NCBI RefSeq assembly: GCF_023699475.1
Contig: NZ_JALXFV010000003.1
Location: 612,878-676,877 of the forward strand
Source of the DNA: Halomarina rubra
Lineage (GTDB): Archaea; Halobacteriota; Halobacteria; Halobacteriales; Haloarculaceae
Reading direction: 5' to 3'
DNA: 64,000 nucleotides
Below, piece by piece: positions 1 to 7,643 of this stretch. How positions within the stretch are numbered: the first letter of the stretch is position 1; each line of letters opens with the position of its first letter. The notes below the pieces were generated by a model. That model saw nothing but the letters and a program-made list of their open reading frames with translations. It did no database searches and was not told where the DNA came from. Both the position numbers and the translations under genes were made by a program.

Positions 1-429
1 GGCCGGTCGCTCGAAGGGTTCGCCGCGGCCGCCGTCTACGCGACCTGCCGCGCCGACGACCTCTCGCGGACCGTCGAGGAGGTCGTCGCCGACGCGAAGG
101 CGACCCGCGCCGAACTCCAGGCGGCATACGACGCGCTCAACCGCGAACTCGGCCTGCCGACCGGCCCCATCGACCCCGCGGAGTACCTCGCGCGGTTCGC
201 CAGCGACCTCGACCTCCCGCGCGAGGTCGAACGCGACGCCCGCGAGCACCTCGACACGCTCGGCACGGCGTTCGTCACCGGTCGGAACCCCGGCGGCGTC
301 GCCGCTGGCTGTCTCTACACCGCGGCCCACCAGCGGAGCTACCCGCTCACACAGGCAGAGGCAGCCGACGCTGGGGGCGTGACGCCCGTCACGCTCCGAA
401 CGACGTACGTCGAACTGACCGAGGAGTGA
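1..429 (+). CDS. Transcription initiation factor B (TFB), C-terminal fragment
   Basis: This is the last 142 codons of a TFIIB-family factor, which recruits RNA polymerase to TATA-bound TBP. The 5' end lies outside the window. The visible part starts inside the first cyclin repeat (GRSLEGFAAAAVYATCR) and runs through the linker into the second repeat, which has the family pattern NPGGVAAGCLYTAAH near the end followed by the VTPVTLRTTY recognition helix. Haloarchaea carry many TFB paralogs, so which one this is cannot be told from the fragment. The stop codon lies inside the first unit of a 24-bp tandem repeat. The next gene is convergent. Confidence 0.93.
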   Translation, partial: GRSLEGFAAAAVYATCRADDLSRTVEEVVADAKATRAELQAAYDALNRELGLPTGPIDPAEYLARFASDLDLPREVERDAREHLDTLGTAFVTGRNPGGVAAGCLYTAAHQRSYPLTQAEAADAGGVTPVTLRTTYVELTEE

Positions 430-519: not shown

Positions 520-1176
520 TCACCGCGAGACCGACCGGACGCGACCCGCGAGTTCGCAGAACGCTTCTCCCGCATCGCACTCGACCCGTCCAGCCGGCAG
601 GCCGTTCGCCATCCCCCGCGCGACGGCCGCCCGTTCGGGAACGGCGACGACCGGCGCGCCGAACGTCCGGGCGACGCGGTCGGTCGGCGGTGTCTCTCCC
701 GAGCGGTTGAGCGCGACGGCGACGAGGCCGGCGTCGAGTTCCCGGGCCAGCGCCCGCGCCCGCACCGCGTCGGCCAGCGCCACCTCGTCGGGCGTCGTCA
801 CGAGTACCGACGCCTCGGCGACGAGCAACGGCAGGCCCACGTCGCTGCCCAGGCCCGCCGGACAGTCGAGGACGACCGTTCCGTAGTGGCGCTCGACGGC
901 CTCGACGGCGGCGACCAGGCGACGCGGGTCGGTCGCTCGCGCGCCGGCCAGCGACCGCCCGCACGGGAGGATGTCGACCGGGCCGCCCTCGCGGACCGCC
1001 TCGACGGCCGCCGCGCGGCCCGCCAGCACGTCGTGGAGGTCCGGGCCGCGACCGGCCGGCAGGTCGGCCATACCGAGGTCGGCGTCGACGACGACGGCGT
1101 CGAGTGCCGCCCCGAGGTTGTACGCGACGGTCGACTTCCCGACCCCACCTTTCCCGCCGGTGACGGCGAGTATCAC
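520..1176 (-). CDS. ParA/MinD-family P-loop ATPase
   Basis: The 218-residue protein has the deviant Walker A motif GGKGGVGKST at residues 7-16, including the signature lysine (K9) used in ATP-dependent dimerisation. A switch region follows (VVVDADLGMADL) and then a Walker B-like VVLDCPAG. It is shorter than typical MinD and shows no obvious C-terminal amphipathic membrane-targeting helix. The start is GTG (1174-1176) and overlaps the stop of the upstream gene by four bases (GTGA), which implies translational coupling. It is the last gene of a minus-strand cluster of five. ParA/MinD ATPases position or segregate cellular cargo; the cargo here is unknown. Confidence 0.88.
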   Translation of the reverse strand: MILAVTGGKGGVGKSTVAYNLGAALDAVVVDADLGMADLPAGRGPDLHDVLAGRAAAVEAVREGGPVDILPCGRSLAGARATDPRRLVAAVEAVERHYGTVVLDCPAGLGSDVGLPLLVAEASVLVTTPDEVALADAVRARALARELDAGLVAVALNRSGETPPTDRVARTFGAPVVAVPERAAVARGMANGLPAGRVECDAGEAFCELAGRVRSVSR

Positions 1177-2009
1177 GGCTCCTCGCCCCCGGTTCGAACC
1201 AGGGTCTCGGTCGGAACGTCGACCCGCTCGGCGCGCTCGCGCAGACGCTCTACACGCTCGGCTAGCGCCCGGAGTCGCTCGCGGTCGGCGGTCAGTGCCT
1301 CGTCGAGCGCCCGCACTCCCGCGAGTCCGCCAGCCTCGGCGACGGCCGCGCCCGCTTCGTCGAGGGTCGTCGCACTCGCGAGTCGTTCGGCGAGCGCGAG
1401 TCGTCGGTCGAGCGCCGCGAACTCGTCACCGACGACCGATTCGTCATCGACGACCGATTCGTCGCCGGCCGACCTTCGCTCGCCGTCGTCCTCTCGGCCC
1501 GCGTCGCTCGACGCCGGGTCGTGGCTGGGAGGGCCGACGTCCGGCGTGCCGTGGTCCGGCTCCGTCGCCTCGCATTCGTCGTCCTCGTCACACTCGTGGT
1601 CGCCGGGTCGTCGTGACCGCGTCGTCTCCTCGGCCGCCGGAATCGCGTCGCGCGGCGGGCGTGGGTCCGACAGGTCGCGGACGACGGCGTCGAGGGACGC
1701 ATCGACGCTCGGGACCTCGGGGTGGGTCTCGAACGTCGGGTCGTCGTCGGGCGGACCACGCCACGCGACGCGGACCGGCGGGTCGTCGGGCGTGTCGGAG
1801 ACCGCGAACCCGAGACCGAGCGTGCCGTCGACGACGCCGCTGTACCCCCGTTCGTCCCACCCGGCGTCGGGGACGCCGTCGGTCCGGGGTGGGAGCACCG
1901 TCGCCTCGCCGGTCGGCTCGACGCGGACCTGGCGAGGGCGGTCGGTCGCGAGTCGAATTTCGACGAGCGTCCGCTCGCCACAGCGACGGGTCGTCCACTC
2001 CGCGTTCAT
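1173..2009 (-). CDS. Haloarchaeal protein of unknown function, acidic middle and helical C-terminus
   Basis: I do not recognise a named family. The 278 residues fall into three parts. Residues 1-110 look like a beta-rich domain, starting MNAEWTTRRCGERTLVEIRL. Residues about 130-195 are acidic and low in complexity. Residues about 195-278 are Arg/Glu/Ala-rich and probably form a coiled coil. An 18-bp tandem duplication (1431-1466) encodes a repeated DDESVV in the acidic part. The gene overlaps the ParA-like gene by four bases and lies 85 bp after the next gene upstream. The context suggests a partner of the ATPase, which is inference only. Confidence 0.75.
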   Translation of the reverse strand: MNAEWTTRRCGERTLVEIRLATDRPRQVRVEPTGEATVLPPRTDGVPDAGWDERGYSGVVDGTLGLGFAVSDTPDDPPVRVAWRGPPDDDPTFETHPEVPSVDASLDAVVRDLSDPRPPRDAIPAAEETTRSRRPGDHECDEDDECEATEPDHGTPDVGPPSHDPASSDAGREDDGERRSAGDESVVDDESVVGDEFAALDRRLALAERLASATTLDEAGAAVAEAGGLAGVRALDEALTADRERLRALAERVERLRERAERVDVPTETLVRTGGEEP

Positions 2010-2094
2010 GGCGGGGATGGTCGCCTGTTCGGTGATAAACTCCGGGCGTCGGAGTGGCGACGAGCGCCGACGCGGCGACGTTCGTCGTCGCGAG

Positions 2095-2901
2095 CTACAG
2101 TCGGAGGACGGGGGTACCGAGCCAGTCGGCCGCGGCGCGGGCGTCGGCGAACCGCTCGCAGTCGAGGACGACGGGTGCGTCCGGGTCGCCGACGCGGTAC
2201 AGCGCGAGCGCGGTCGTCACCGGCGGCGCGTCGAACGCGTCGTCGTGGGCGTCCGTCCCGTCGAGCGACGTCACGGCCGCGCGGAACTCGGGAGCGACGC
2301 GCTCGACGAGGTGTCGCCGGGCGGCCCGTTCGAGGTTGGCGAGGCGGTCGTCGAGGCGACGGCGTTCCTCGCGGGCGTCCCGGTGGTCGCGTCGACGGTC
2401 GCGAGCGTGGTCGAGCGCCTGCCGGGCGGCGACGCCGGTGGTCTCCCGCTCGGTGAGGTCGGCGAGCGCTCTCGACAGCTCCGTCTCCGCGTCGCTCGGG
2501 TCGCCGTCGCCCTCTCGGAGCGCCCGGACTCGCCCCTGGAGACGCGCGACCCGCTCGCGAAGTCGGTCGACGTCCGCGCCCGTCTCGGCGACCCGTTCGC
2601 GGAGCGGCGCGGTGTCGACACGCTCGGCGTCCAGGTCGTCGAGGCGAGCACGGAGCCGCCGGACCTCGTCGTCCTGTGGGGCCGCCAGCCCCCGCGACCG
2701 GGCCGCGACGGCGAGCGCGGTCCGGACGCGAACGGTGCCGTCGGGGGCGACGACGCCGACACGGTCGGCCAGCGCGCCGGGGGCGGGGCAGTCCAGCCAG
2801 TCACACTCGCCGCGGACGGCTGCGAGCGCCTCGGCACGCCCGACGCGCCCCCCGAGGTCTGCGGCGTCGGTCTCCCGTGGTTCGACCAGTGCGACTCTCA
2901 T
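2095..2901 (-). CDS. Coiled-coil protein of unknown function in the ParA cluster
   Basis: This 268-residue protein has no family I can name. Residues 1-70 form a compact N-terminal domain. Residues about 78-215 are a long heptad-like, Arg/Glu/Leu-rich coiled coil (LRERVAETGADVDRLRERVA and following). The last 50 residues look globular again (VVLDCERFADARAAADWLGT). The ATG lies one base after the stop of the gene upstream, so the two are almost certainly cotranscribed. A long coiled coil next to a ParA/MinD ATPase is the architecture expected of an adaptor or scaffold; that role is inferred, not shown. Confidence 0.78.
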   Translation of the reverse strand: MRVALVEPRETDAADLGGRVGRAEALAAVRGECDWLDCPAPGALADRVGVVAPDGTVRVRTALAVAARSRGLAAPQDDEVRRLRARLDDLDAERVDTAPLRERVAETGADVDRLRERVARLQGRVRALREGDGDPSDAETELSRALADLTERETTGVAARQALDHARDRRRDHRDAREERRRLDDRLANLERAARRHLVERVAPEFRAAVTSLDGTDAHDDAFDAPPVTTALALYRVGDPDAPVVLDCERFADARAAADWLGTPVLRL

Positions 2902-2902
2902 C

Positions 2903-3241
2903 TCACAGCTCCTCGCCGACCATCGACTCGGGGTCGGGGTAGCCGTTCGCGTCGGCGAACGCCGTGTACGGGAGGCTCGCCTGCTCGCGATCCTCGTAGG
3001 CGCTGGCGGCCTCCCTGACGGCCTCGGGGACCGTCTCGAACTCGTTGAACGGTTCGACGCGTTCGACGCCGACGTCGCCGGGGTGTTTCGCCCGCAACCG
3101 GAGTGCGAGGAACGCCCCGAGTTCGGTGAACTCGAACAGCGCGACGCGTCCGAACCGCCGGACGACGCTCTCCTCGTGGCTCCGGTGGACGTTCCGGAGC
3201 GACGTCCGCGCGGCCCGGGAGTACGCGACGACGAGCAACAC
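2903..3241 (-). CDS. Small conserved haloarchaeal protein in the ParA cluster
   Basis: The gene encodes 112 residues starting from GTG at 3239-3241. The N-terminal part carries an Arg/His-rich segment (AARTSLRNVHRSHEESVVRRFGR) and the C-terminus contains YPDPESMVGEEL. No family is recognised. A TATA-like TTTTAG on the minus strand (around 3266-3272) lies about 27 nt before the GTG, so this start fits a leaderless transcript and could be the main promoter of the 520-3241 genes. The stop is one base from the ATG of the coiled-coil gene. Confidence 0.72.
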   Translation of the reverse strand: MLLVVAYSRAARTSLRNVHRSHEESVVRRFGRVALFEFTELGAFLALRLRAKHPGDVGVERVEPFNEFETVPEAVREAASAYEDREQASLPYTAFADANGYPDPESMVGEEL

Positions 3242-3330
3242 GCGCGGCGTTCACGACTCGCCGCACTAAAATGATGTGTTGTCGACAGCTGAAATCGCGG
3301 GACGTCGGTGTGGGACGTCGGGCCGCCGGC

Positions 3331-3603
3331 TCACTCGACGCGGTCGACGCTCACCGCGTCGCGGGTCACGTCGGCGAGGTCGGCGACGCGTTCGCGGGCC
3401 TCCGACGGCGAGGAGGCGAGGACGACCACGCCGTCGGCGGCCCCGTCGCCGCTGGCACGGTAGGCGTCCTGCTCGGCGAACTCCGTGGCGTACGTTCGGA
3501 GGACGCCCCGGACGCGGCGCTCCATCGACGCGAGGTCGCACTCTCCGGCCTCGAACTCGCTCAACGCCTCCTCGACGTTCCGAAGCGCCGAAATCCGGTC
3601 CAT
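3331..3603 (-). CDS. Small acidic protein of unknown function at the head of the ParA cluster
   Basis: The 90-residue protein begins MDRISALRNVEEALSEFE. An open frame extends further upstream, but those codons read as arginine-rich shadow sequence, so the internal ATG at 3601-3603 is preferred. The protein is mostly helical and acidic. It contains LRTYATEFAEQDAYRASGDG and a short hydrophobic VVVLASS stretch. No family is recognised. It is the first of the five minus-strand genes, with 89 bp to the next, so it may have its own transcript. Confidence 0.7.
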   Translation of the reverse strand: MDRISALRNVEEALSEFEAGECDLASMERRVRGVLRTYATEFAEQDAYRASGDGAADGVVVLASSPSEARERVADLADVTRDAVSVDRVE

Positions 3604-3682: not shown

Positions 3683-3985
3683 CTACGACGGCCCGGCCCG
3701 ACTCTGGACCGCCCAGCCGCCCTCGAAGTCACAGCCCGTGCGTTCGACGTACTCGATGTCGGTCTCACGGGTCACCGCGCCGCTGCCCTCGACGTTCTCG
3801 ACGACGAACGGGATGTGCAGGGCGTCGCCACAGCAGCCGACGTCGGCGAACTCCTCGAACCGGTCGCCCTCCTCGAACGTCTCGTGGGTGCGTCTGAGCC
3901 ACGCGAGGAAGTGGGTCGTCGATATCTGCTGCCGGCCCCACGTGCTCAACTCGTCGGGGTGTGACAGCACGACGCGAGTTATCAT
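3683..3985 (-). CDS. Conserved haloarchaeal protein of unknown function (100 aa)
   Basis: The start chosen is the ATG at 3983-3985 (MITRVVLSHPDELSTWGRQQ), because the longer open frame upstream runs through the divergent SDR gene. The protein has a compact alpha/beta look. It includes a Trp/His-rich segment (FLAWLRRTHETFEEGDRFEEF) and two adjacent cysteines in VGCCGDALHIPF. No family is recognised. It lies 79 bp upstream of the ParA cluster on the same strand, and is divergent from the SDR gene across 106 bp. Confidence 0.68.
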   Translation of the reverse strand: MITRVVLSHPDELSTWGRQQISTTHFLAWLRRTHETFEEGDRFEEFADVGCCGDALHIPFVVENVEGSGAVTRETDIEYVERTGCDFEGGWAVQSRAGPS

Positions 3986-4091
3986 GGGGTGGCGTAGACG
4001 GCCGGTACGGTTAGCCCTTCGGCCGTCGGGCGACACCGGCAATCGCCCCCGCCTCGCCCGGCGTTTTCCGTCCGACGCCCCTCCGTCGGGT

Positions 4092-4859
4092 ATGGTCGAC
4101 GTCTCACCGACGGACCTCACGGACCGCGTCGCAATCGTCACCGGTGCCTCCTCGGGTATCGGCGAGGCCACCGCCCGGACGCTGGCGAACGAGGGGGCGA
4201 GCGTCGTACTGGCCGCCCGGCGCGAGGACGAACTCCAGTCGCTCGCCGACGACATCGAGTCCGAGGGCGGCGACGCGCTCGTCGTCCCCACGGATGTGGC
4301 CGAGGAAGAACAGACCCAGCGCCTCGTCGACGCGACGGTCGACGAGTACGACCGACTCGACGTCCTCGTCAACAACGCGGGCGTGATGCTCAACGAGCCG
4401 TTCCAGCGCTCCGACGTCGAGCACTACGAGACGATGGTCGAGGTGAACCTGCTGGGGCTGATGAAGGCCACCCGGTTCGCCGTCCCGGTGATGCAGGAGA
4501 CGGGCGACGGGCGGGGCCACGTCGTCCAGATGTCCTCCGTCGCGGGTCGCCACGCGTACAAGAGCCACGCGGCGTACAACGGCACGAAGTTCGGCGTCAA
4601 CGGCTTCACCGAGTCCCTCCGGAAGGACACCTGCGGCGACGGCATCCGTACCACGCTCGTCGAACCGGGCGCGGTCGACACCGAACTCCAACAGCACATC
4701 CCCGACGAGGAGGAGAAGGAGGGCACCGAGGAGATGCTGGCGTCGATGGACGCGCTCGCTCCCGACGACATCGCCGCCGGCGTCACCTACGCCGTCACCC
4801 AACCCGCGAACGTCTCCATCAACGAACTGCTCATCCGCCCGACCGAACAGGAGATGTAG
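4092..4859 (+). CDS. Short-chain dehydrogenase/reductase
   Basis: A classical SDR of 255 residues, probably an NADP(H)-dependent oxidoreductase of unknown substrate. The cofactor motif TGASSGIG is at about residues 17-24 and NNAG at about 94-97. The catalytic serine is in MSSVAGR, and the Tyr-x-x-x-Lys pair is in AAYNGTKFG. The closing segment VSINELLIRPTEQEM is typical of the serine-3-dehydrogenase/YdfG-like branch of SDRs. The ATG at 4092 is the first sensible start; the frame before it is shadow sequence. The gene stands alone between the 3683-3985 gene and a GNAT gene on the same strand. Confidence 0.88.
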   Translation: MVDVSPTDLTDRVAIVTGASSGIGEATARTLANEGASVVLAARREDELQSLADDIESEGGDALVVPTDVAEEEQTQRLVDATVDEYDRLDVLVNNAGVMLNEPFQRSDVEHYETMVEVNLLGLMKATRFAVPVMQETGDGRGHVVQMSSVAGRHAYKSHAAYNGTKFGVNGFTESLRKDTCGDGIRTTLVEPGAVDTELQQHIPDEEEKEGTEEMLASMDALAPDDIAAGVTYAVTQPANVSINELLIRPTEQEM

Positions 4860-4905
4860 CCTCGGCCGCCGGCACAAGTTTCTCCGCTCGGGCGGTGCGT
4901 TCGGT

Positions 4906-5535
4906 ATGCCGCCCCGTTCGATTCGACTCGCTAGCCCCACAGACGCGACTGCGATACAGCGCATCTACGAACCGTACGTCGCGGAGACGGCCGTCTCGTT
5001 CGAACGTGATCCACCATCCGTCACGGAGATGGCCGACCACATCGACGCGACCCTCCCCGACCACCCCTGGCTGGTCGCCGAAGTCGACGGCGAGGTCGTC
5101 GGCTACGCGTACGCCGGCCCGTTCCGCTCCCGGCCGGCCTACCGCTGGGCCGTCGAGTGCTCGGTGTACGTCGCCCCCGACGCTCACCGTTGCGGCGTCG
5201 GGCGGGTACTCTACGGCGCGCTGTTCGCTCTCCTGGACCAGCAGGGCTACCGGACCGCGTACGCGGGGATGACCGTCCCGAACGAAGCGAGCGCGGGCCT
5301 CCACGAGGCGCTGGGGTTCACGCCCGTCGGGACGTTCGAACACGCCGGCTACAAGCAGGATGCGTGGCACGACGTCCAGTGGTGGCAACGACCGGTCGGT
5401 GAGACCCCCGCCGACGCCGACGACCCCCCAGCGGAGCCACGGCCGCTCTCCGACCTCGACGAGGACGCACTCTCGGTGTCGCTGGCGGTCGACGCGGTCG
5501 ACGCGGTCGACGGCTCGGCGGGCGAGGAGGAGTAG
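4906..5535 (+). CDS. GNAT N-acetyltransferase, phosphinothricin-acetyltransferase-like
   Basis: This 209-residue protein matches the PAT/MnaT branch of the GNAT superfamily. Its N-terminus reads IRLASPTDATAIQRIYEPYV. YAYAGPFRSRPAYRWAVECSVYV follows, with the acetyl-CoA motif HRCGVGRVLYGALF, and then the C-terminal signature NEASAGLHEALGF with VGTFEHAGYK. Such enzymes acetylate small amines or amino-acid analogues; the natural substrate is unknown. The last 40 residues are an acidic tail not needed by the fold. A 9-bp unit is perfectly repeated three times at 5485-5511 and encodes AVDAVDAVD there. The gene is convergent with mcm, with 11 bp between the stop codons. Confidence 0.87.
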   Translation: MPPRSIRLASPTDATAIQRIYEPYVAETAVSFERDPPSVTEMADHIDATLPDHPWLVAEVDGEVVGYAYAGPFRSRPAYRWAVECSVYVAPDAHRCGVGRVLYGALFALLDQQGYRTAYAGMTVPNEASAGLHEALGFTPVGTFEHAGYKQDAWHDVQWWQRPVGETPADADDPPAEPRPLSDLDEDALSVSLAVDAVDAVDGSAGEEE

Positions 5536-5546
5536 TCGGCCGCCGT

Positions 5547-7643
5547 TCAGACCGTCCGCAGGTGGTCCTGACTCGGTTCGTAGACGTCGCCCTGGCGACG
5601 CAGTTTCTCGATCTCGTGTTCGGCCTTCGAGCGTTCGATACCCGCCGCCTCGGCCTGGTCGAGCACCTCGTCGACGGGTGCGCCGTCGTCGTACTCCGCC
5701 TCCACGTCGCGGATGATGTCCTTGATGGAGCGCACGCGGTCGCGCTGGGTCTTCGAGCGGCCCGTCTCGACGATGTCGGCGTCGAACTCGCCGGTTTCGG
5801 GGTCCATCCCGATGTCCTCCAGCGACGAGCGGACGATGTCGATGACGCGCTCGGCGTCCTCGACCTCCACGCGGTCCGAGAGGCGGACGCGAGCGGACGC
5901 TTCGGCGAGACGGACCAGCCCTTCGAGTTTCCGGGCGGTGACGGGCACCGGCGAGTCGCCGTCGGTCCCCTGCGAGCGCAGGTCGACGTAGAACTGCTCG
6001 ATCTCGTCTTTGGCCTCGTCGGTCAGTACGGGGAAGCAGGTACGCTTCGAGTACGCGATGTACTTCCGGAGGAAGTCGGCGTCGATGGCCGGTTCGACCG
6101 TCTCGGTTATCTTCTCGACCTCGTCGTCGGAGTAGTTCGACGTGGCGTTCTCGGTGCGGTGGGTGTGGAGTTCGCCCGCGTAGTTCGTCGTGAGGATGTG
6201 GTCGGCGAGGTCGCGGTCGCGGTCGGCGTCCGGCTTGTCCGTGATGGTGAAGATGAGGTCGAACCGCGAGATGAGCGCCGGTTCGAGTTCGATCTGCTCG
6301 GCGATGGGTTCGTACTCGTCGAACCGTCCGTACTTCGGGTTGGCCGCGCCGAGCAGCGAACAGCGCGACTTGAGAGTGGCGTTGATACCCGCCTTCGAGA
6401 TGGAGATGGACTGCTGTTCGAGCGCCTCGTGCATCGCGCTGCGGTCCTCGGGGCGCATCTTGTCGAGTTCGTCCACCGCCGCGATGCCCTGGTCGGCGAG
6501 CACGAGCGCGCCGGCTTCGAGCGACCACTGCTGACCCTCGCCGAAGTCGTCGCGGACGGCCGCGGCCGTGAGACCGGCGGAACTCGACCCCTTCCCGGAG
6601 GTGTAGACGGAGCGCGGCGCGATAGAGCGCACGTACTGGAGCAGTTGGGACTTCCCCGTACCGGGGTCACCGATGAGCAGCATGTGGAAGTCGCCACGAA
6701 TCCGGGAGCCGTCGGGGAGGTGTTTGGTGACGCCCGAAAAGAGCTGGAGGATGATGGCGAGTTTCTCCTCTTCGTACCCCCAGATGGAGGGGGCCATCGA
6801 CCCGATCATCTGCTCGTAGATGCTGTCGTCGTCCGACAGCGCCACGATCTTGCGCTTCTCCTCCTCGGTGATGTCCATCTCCTCGAACTGCTCGTCTTCG
6901 ATCTCGACGGCGATTCCCTCCATGAACACGTCGAACATGGCCGACTTCTTCTGGTTCGACTCCTGCTGTTCGAGGTGGAGGATGCCGGTGACGCTGACGT
7001 GGTCGCCGGCGGTCACCTTCCCGGTGATGTCGTCCTCGATGTGGACGTCGATGTTCTGGGGTGTCTCCCCGCCTCGAAGCCCTTCGGGGGACTCCTGGAC
7101 GCGGATCTTCTGCGCGTCGACGAACTCGGACTGGTCGAAGTTGATGCGGAACGGCCCCTGTCGTTCACAGCCGCCACACTCGTGGGGTTCCTGGAAGTCG
7201 CCGCCGGTCTGGGGGATGCGGGTGAGGGTGCCACAGCGCTGGCACTCGAAGGCCGCCTGCTGTATCTTCGGACGGACGTCGGTCGCCTTCCGGACGATGC
7301 CCTTCACGGCGATGAGTTGGCCGCGGTGGCGCGCCCGGATGTTCCGGATGTCCGTCGCGCGGTCGAGGTCGTGGATACGGACGTGGGCCTGTCCGAGCGA
7401 GACGTCGACCGGGAGGTCGTAGAGTCGCAGCGCCTCCTCGGCGTACTCCTGGAGCTGGCCGGGCTGGTTGCGGTACTGGTCGGCGAGGTCCTGGTCGAAC
7501 CGGTAGAGGTCGTCGAAGGAGATGTAGAGCGAGCGCTGCTCGTTGGGGTACTTCCGCGCGAGTTCACCGATCTCGTTGCGGTAGTAGTTGCGGTAGAACT
7601 CCTCGAAGTCGTCGATGATGTCGGTGTTCTCCGCCTGTGCCAT
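5547..7643 (-). CDS. mcm: Minichromosome maintenance DNA helicase MCM
   Basis: The 698-residue replicative helicase unwinds DNA ahead of the fork as a hexameric ring. The N-terminal domain ends with a zinc site (C134, C137, C156, C159). The AAA+ core has Walker A GDPGTGKS (residues 325-332), Walker B ending in DE (391-392), the sensor-1 asparagine in LGAANP (about 435) and the arginine finger in SRFDL (R460). The C-terminal 70 residues form the winged-helix region. No intein interrupts the usual sites, although haloarchaeal MCMs often carry them. It is divergent from the 7782 gene across 138 bp. Confidence 0.98.
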   Translation of the reverse strand: MAQAENTDIIDDFEEFYRNYYRNEIGELARKYPNEQRSLYISFDDLYRFDQDLADQYRNQPGQLQEYAEEALRLYDLPVDVSLGQAHVRIHDLDRATDIRNIRARHRGQLIAVKGIVRKATDVRPKIQQAAFECQRCGTLTRIPQTGGDFQEPHECGGCERQGPFRINFDQSEFVDAQKIRVQESPEGLRGGETPQNIDVHIEDDITGKVTAGDHVSVTGILHLEQQESNQKKSAMFDVFMEGIAVEIEDEQFEEMDITEEEKRKIVALSDDDSIYEQMIGSMAPSIWGYEEEKLAIILQLFSGVTKHLPDGSRIRGDFHMLLIGDPGTGKSQLLQYVRSIAPRSVYTSGKGSSSAGLTAAAVRDDFGEGQQWSLEAGALVLADQGIAAVDELDKMRPEDRSAMHEALEQQSISISKAGINATLKSRCSLLGAANPKYGRFDEYEPIAEQIELEPALISRFDLIFTITDKPDADRDRDLADHILTTNYAGELHTHRTENATSNYSDDEVEKITETVEPAIDADFLRKYIAYSKRTCFPVLTDEAKDEIEQFYVDLRSQGTDGDSPVPVTARKLEGLVRLAEASARVRLSDRVEVEDAERVIDIVRSSLEDIGMDPETGEFDADIVETGRSKTQRDRVRSIKDIIRDVEAEYDDGAPVDEVLDQAEAAGIERSKAEHEIEKLRRQGDVYEPSQDHLRTV

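Follow-up and report, generated by a model that had tools for sequence, protein, structure and literature searches.

Gene content of the minD1 locus

The 64,000-nucleotide stretch of the Halomarina rubra genome analysed here (contig NZ_JALXFV010000003.1, positions 612,878 to 676,877; hereafter the window) carries on its minus strand a compact cluster of five genes that encode a ParA/MinD-type ATPase, MinD1, and four unnamed proteins (Table 1). A first-pass annotation, made from the sequence alone, had pointed to this cluster beside mcm and a TFB gene and had treated its five genes as one possible positioning or segregation system. The cluster itself stands: all five products match curated families, Pfam assigning the four unnamed proteins to DUF7854, DUF7855, DUF7856 and DUF7857 and the ATPase to the ParA/MinD type; the two flanking genes are where they had been placed, and the same gene order is seen again across the class. 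The tight spacing was likewise found as described, with a 4-bp overlap (1173-1176) between the stop of the DUF7857 gene and the start of minD1, and a single base separating the DUF7855 gene from that of the coiled-coil protein DUF7856.

In Haloferax volcanii, mcm is HVO_0220 (PMC3972481) and minD1 is HVO_0225 (PMC11588486), and in Haloferax loci exactly the DUF7854, DUF7855, DUF7856 and DUF7857 genes sit between mcm and the ATPase gene; the window locus is therefore taken as the minD1 locus. All four DUF families were detected in the H. volcanii control genome, and nothing is known to differ between the two loci. Our assignment of the window ATPase as orthologous to H. volcanii MinD1 is an inference from this gene context rather than from aligning it with HVO_0225. 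In the literature searched there is no described function for H. volcanii MinD1, no mention of a partnership with DUF7857, and no mention of the names DUF7854-DUF7857 or of HVO_0221-0224.

Table 1. Features of the minD1 locus in window coordinates (aa, amino acids; pLDDT, AlphaFold2 predicted local distance difference test)
Feature	Position	Strand	Remarks
minD1	520..1176	-	218 aa, GTG start; MinD-type deviant-Walker ATPase
Deviant Walker A with signature lysine, GKGGVGKST, residues 8-16 of MinD1	1129..1155	-	from sequence
DUF7857 (PF25256)	1173..2009	-	278 aa; Pfam 78.7 bits
C-terminal helical bundle of DUF7857, residues 189-273	1191..1445	-	predicted; pLDDT 91-98 over most of the stretch
Acidic linker of DUF7857, residues 124-187	1449..1640	-	predicted disordered; pLDDT 44-63
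DUF7857 motif VVRDLSDPRPPRDAI, residues 109-123	1641..1685	-	candidate MinD1-docking element
N-terminal beta-sandwich-like domain of DUF7857, residues 2-83	1761..2006	-	predicted; pLDDT 94-97 over residues 1-80
TATA-like box TTTATC at -30 of DUF7857	2034..2039	-	from sequence pattern
DUF7856 (PF25254)	2095..2901	-	268 aa; Pfam 235 bits
DUF7855 (PF25253)	2903..3241	-	112 aa; Pfam 175 bits
TATA-like box TTTTAG at -30 of DUF7855	3266..3271	-	window variant, missed by the strict pattern
DUF7854 (PF25252)	3331..3603	-	90 aa; Pfam 129 bits
mcm replicative helicase	5547..7643	-	upstream neighbour, kept in most clusters
TFB (TFIIB) gene, 3' part	1..429	+	converges on minD1; PF00382, 87.5 bits; same place in most loci

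Between mcm and DUF7854 the window has three further genes (3683-5535), namely a 100-aa open reading frame without a family match, an SDR gene and a GNAT gene. They occur at this place only in the window genome and its near relative Halomarina oriensis, which points to a lineage-specific insertion. The gap between the converging ends of tfb and minD1 (421-485) contains a direct repeat of GACCGAGGAGTGACGCCACGCTCT in roughly three imperfect copies.

Conservation and predicted promoter of the DUF7857-minD1 pair

Conservation was assessed in 194 Halobacteria genomes, with MinD1 counted at E<1e-43, a threshold set at a gap in the match list. DUF7857 is present in 146 genomes and MinD1 in 142, and they nearly always occur together: 141 genomes have both, five have only DUF7857, one has only MinD1 and 47 have neither, a co-occurrence for which the Fisher p-value is not to be taken literally because the genomes are related by descent. 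DUF7856, DUF7855 and DUF7854 were found in 119, 123 and 119 genomes, respectively. The DUF7857 gene lies directly upstream on the same strand in 143 of the 145 MinD1 copies, the two exceptions being a contig break (G147) and a divergent DUF7857 in the upstream place (G129), and the overlap is exactly 4 bp in 117 of 125 distinct pairs. No credible member was found outside Halobacteria, where one weak sub-cut-off match has an internal stop and no adjacent MinD. A plasmid search gave no match for MinD1 or DUF7857 and, being run with no positive control, carries little weight; a virus-derived origin was rejected, as PHROGs returned only a generic ParA match.

Among the 131 distinct regions upstream of DUF7857, 106 have a TATA-like element at -34 to -22 and none has one in the control interval from -60 to -36. 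For DUF7855 the element is present at -34 to -22 in 68 of 118 such regions, and before minD1 none was found in 122. Because such boxes precede both DUF7855 and DUF7857, the five genes of the window do not look like one operon. Since the pair is separable from DUF7854-7856 and has its own TATA box, with none before minD1 and a 4-bp overlap inside it, DUF7857-minD1 is, judged by these sequence patterns, an autonomous, translationally coupled bicistron.

The commonest order across Halobacteria is mcm > DUF7854 > DUF7855 > DUF7856 > DUF7857 > minD1 > tfb (convergent). Gene order beyond close relatives had been set beforehand as a refutation test, and the order is kept across Halobacteria. This order, common to much of the class, together with the position of DUF7857 just downstream of 108 of the 119 DUF7856 copies, is what would be expected if the five proteins worked together in a single machine for positioning or segregation, in which DUF7856 served as coiled-coil scaffold or cargo and DUF7854/7855 were accessory proteins. 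A Natronomonas-like genome that has lost the stop codon of DUF7856, so that DUF7856 and DUF7857 share one open frame (L054:4203-5864), points the same way, although it amounts to one stop-codon loss. We nevertheless consider such a machine rather unlikely, and of the five-gene system first proposed only DUF7857-minD1 proves tight, as the two groups are separable in both directions. Thirty-one genomes have the pair without DUF7856, and in the 27 such loci that were fetched DUF7854-7856 are not adjacent, save for one locus with DUF7855. Conversely, Natronomonas-type genomes and a few others have kept DUF7854-7856 but have no MinD1; in G013, G065, G136 and G142 these genes are far removed from the pair, and in G029 and G047 they are represented beside mcm by DUF7855 alone. 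The separate TATA boxes, including the promoter-like box of DUF7857 itself, also speak against a single machine.

The 27 pair-only loci define a second genomic context. In 21 of them the pair has as a neighbour a KaiC-like domain of family DUF7125, typically as part of a fusion with a ParA ATPase, and in 13 it adjoins a TrkA_C-containing membrane protein. The order ParA-DUF7125 > membrane protein > TrkA_C membrane protein > DUF7857 > MinD1 is recurrent (L103:1-4218, L092, L097, L086), with GLUG-repeat and pilin-like (DUF7382-like) genes coming next in some cases, and we regard it as an undescribed second system. KaiC-like proteins are found near MinD1 in both contexts, as DUF7504 in mcm-linked clusters and DUF7125 at bare pairs.

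The proximity of mcm to most clusters, and the presence of MinD1 with a short DUF7857 between mcm and tfb in two loci (L096, L098), could mean that the mcm link is functional and that the module regulates replication instead of positioning a cargo, by analogy with bacterial ParA/Soj, which acts on DnaA. We consider this very unlikely: the other subclade of MinD1 lies away from mcm, conserved synteny is by itself weak evidence of function, and about a quarter of the genomes have no MinD1, yet all of them must replicate.

The MinD1 ATPase

MinD1 scores 123.1 bits (E=1e-35) against the NCBIfam model TIGR01969 (minD_arch), short of the cut-off of 201.75 bits, and so is by sequence a divergent relative of archaeal MinD, not a cut-off member of that family. 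In a profile search of solved structures the nearest was Pyrococcus furiosus MinD (1g3q, E=5.5e-24), with archaeal MinDs closest and the FlhG/FleN site-determining proteins after them. MinD1 appears from its sequence to share its fold family with archaeal MinD (TIGR01969; P. furiosus 1g3q, P. horikoshii 1ion, A. fulgidus MinD-1 1hyq), and like these proteins it has a deviant Walker A with the signature lysine, a D-P-A-G Walker B and an LHDVLAG segment; unlike them it is shorter, lacks a C-terminal extension and is almost invariably paired with DUF7857. In an alignment of 132 sequences, K9, G10, G11, V12, G13, K14 and T16 of the Walker A, D31 and D33 of the Walker A' and D104 and P106-G108 of the Walker B are each conserved at ≥95%, and at this level GKGGVGK, D31xD33, D104xPAG and the nucleotide-binding N157 count as invariant. 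The hallmarks of ParA/MinD (deviant Walker A) ATPases, xKGGxxK[ST] with the signature lysine, DxD and DxPAG, are present, and in sequence the ATPase motifs are intact. The root of the MinD1 tree was left unused because distant paralogs sit on long branches.

The protein stops at the last core helix, with 8-25 residues (median 13) beyond the last conserved aromatic or aliphatic position, and inspection of the residues after that position found no C-terminal amphipathic membrane-targeting tail. A MinD paralog in the same genome (L212:1486-2529) has a long acidic linker and then an amphipathic-looking SALGRLRGLFD tail. Directly after another MinD-like region (L215:769-2478) stands an independent KaiC-like gene similar to DUF7125, as if the two were an unfused form of ParA-DUF7125.

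FlhG/FleN, Mrp/NBP35 and Get3 relatives have jobs in maturation, assembly or delivery. MinD1 might likewise be a SIMIBI ATPase that acts in the maturation, assembly or delivery of a complex and not in positioning, with DUF7857 as client or co-factor; its top Pfam family is PF10609, named for NUBPL iron-transfer ATPases, FleN/FlhG are among its nearest solved relatives, and minD1 has no known motility, growth or FtsZ phenotype (PMC11588486, PMC11621097). This role seems unlikely to us, as archaeal MinDs provide both the closest structures and the subfamily model, and no conserved enzyme or client gene stands beside the pair in both contexts. Furthermore, among the positions conserved in ≥95% of the 132 sequences C72 is the only cysteine, and the CxxC pair typical of Fe-S carriers is missing, on which ground identity as an Fe-S carrier ATPase (Mrp/ApbC/NUBPL) was rejected. 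The near-invariant C72 itself (in LPCGR; window 961-963) is unexpected there from general MinD motifs.

DUF7857 and a candidate docking motif

The acidic middle and helical end first ascribed to the ATPase partner correspond to a linker and a helical bundle behind an N-terminal beta-domain (Table 1), and AlphaFold2 places a further short helix at residues 106-114. A structure search with the beta-domain gave no PDB match at E<=1e-3, and since its beta-sandwich matches were all non-significant, a fold-based function for DUF7857 was dropped. Profile searches of DUF7857 and DUF7855 against solved structures gave no significant match. Consistent with the initial impression, none of the partners resembles ParB or MinE in Pfam, NCBIfam, Foldseek or solved-structure profile searches, and the profile and structure searches found no homology of the partners to an enzyme, which had been named as the second refutation test.

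Behind the beta-domain, the consensus VVRxLGDPRPPRDAV, scored leave-one-out and counted where it exceeded the 99% level of a null built by shuffling, occurs in 86 of 87 long DUF7857 proteins accompanied by MinD1 and in 26 of the 39 short proteins; all nine from Natronomonas, where MinD1 is absent, lack it. The DUF7857 of bare pairs mostly has ~121 residues, comprising the beta-domain and a short tail without the helical bundle. In Natronomonas the protein retains the beta-domain and the helical bundle, and the motif and acidic linker are gone. Because this lineage lost MinD1, motif and linker yet kept both domains, the motif is the best candidate for a MinD1 docking site in DUF7857.

In Haloarcula rara (L209:7188-8651) DUF7857 runs out of frame past the beta-domain and opens into the MinD1 frame, by a frameshift or a sequencing error.

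DUF7856 and the mcm-proximal genes

The coiled coil of about 140 residues that had been noted at first pass was recovered as a predicted stretch of DUF7856 at residues ~77-217 (2251-2673), and AlphaFold2 (pLDDT 93.1) predicts a small head and an antiparallel coiled-coil hairpin with helices 98-130 and 136-217. Its best Foldseek matches are SMC/RecN heads and are non-significant (E 0.055), and Pfam and NCBIfam reveal no ABC-type ATPase head with Walker A/B. Given this lack of an ATPase head, the Foldseek value and a length of only 268 aa, a true SMC/Rad50-type protein was rejected; so was a defence system, as the PADLOC matches of DUF7856 to JetC/LmuB are weak and fall on low-complexity coil. 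DUF7855 is the most conserved of the four DUFs (mean column identity 70% in a 42-row alignment), and DUF7854 adjoins mcm in most clusters. A KaiC-like DUF7504 gene, absent from the window, stands between DUF7854 and DUF7855 in 53 of 125 fetched cluster loci (e.g. L067:5052-5756). The mcm of one Natronomonas-like genome has an intein-like insertion (L220:9134-12001); inteins in haloarchaeal mcm are already known.

Proposed role of the pair

The likeliest reading is that MinD1 is an ATPase served by a new partner of its own and that the two act in the manner of ParA/MinD systems, probably as a two-part intracellular organiser. To its more specific form, a two-protein module in which a MinD-type ATPase is docked by its partner through PPxDxV and linked to a cargo or scaffold, we give roughly even chances. 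Translational coupling from one promoter would co-produce MinD1 and DUF7857, and MinD1 would dimerise on ATP. The short PPxDxV element behind the DUF7857 beta-domain would dock MinD1 and probably regulate it, and the beta-domain, joined in mcm-linked loci by the C-terminal helical bundle, would tie MinD1 to the cargo or scaffold. A plausible third component is the coiled-coil protein DUF7856, whose gene lies immediately upstream; in the mcm-linked version it would most likely serve as the scaffold. Having no tail of its own for membrane targeting, MinD1 would use as its matrix the nucleoid, or else a membrane or scaffold partner.

Several observations weigh against this interpretation. A Haloquadratum DUF7857 (L200) retains the motif without MinD1, and the co-loss of motif and MinD1 comes from a single clade, where it is probably a single evolutionary event. 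DUF7857 also has a second role, because Natronomonas keeps it without MinD1. In H. volcanii, deleting minD1 along with minD2-4 adds no detected phenotype: growth and FtsZ positioning are unaffected when all four minD genes are deleted, and the motility defect is that of delta-minD2/4 (PMC11588486, PMC11621097). Finally, known partners of the ParB/MinE/McdB type have a disordered, positively charged N-terminus proposed to contact the ATPase (PMC10241942), whereas residues 1-80 of DUF7857 are predicted to be folded, so that DUF7857, if a partner, would be of another kind.

Bacterial ParA/MinD systems (ParAB, MinDE, McdAB, FlhG, ParC) likewise have a small dedicated partner gene beside the ATPase gene, and the DUF7857 gene is both adjacent to its ATPase gene and conserved with it, as is general for such partners; DUF7857 differs in its folded N-terminal beta-domain, which replaces the basic disordered segment, and has no detectable relation to ParB or MinE. 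Among the H. volcanii paralogs, MinD2 and the oscillating MinD4 affect the positioning of the motility machinery, an effect not known for MinD1, and MinD2 also has a conserved co-transcribed partner, HVO_0596. A bolder proposal is that DUF7857 founds a new class of ParA/MinD partners, with an Ig-like domain and a proline-rich docking motif serving an anchorless MinD, and that together with the SMC-like-looking coiled coil DUF7856 it makes a haloarchaeal chromosome or replisome organiser, reused beside a KaiC-like ParA fusion and membrane proteins; we judge it improbable.

The ATPase itself already has a name and belongs to a known family. The literature searched describes neither its near-obligate partnership with DUF7857 nor the separate promoter, the occurrence in two genomic contexts or the candidate docking motif. 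Haloarchaea have several MinD paralogs, with no clear MinE-equivalent partner identified (PMC11621097), and DUF7857 is a specific, near-obligate candidate partner for one of them, with a candidate docking motif open to mutagenesis. Natronomonas provides a natural experiment in which MinD1 and the motif were lost together, and H. volcanii, which carries the whole locus (HVO_0220 to HVO_0225), makes the proposed module testable in an existing genetic system.

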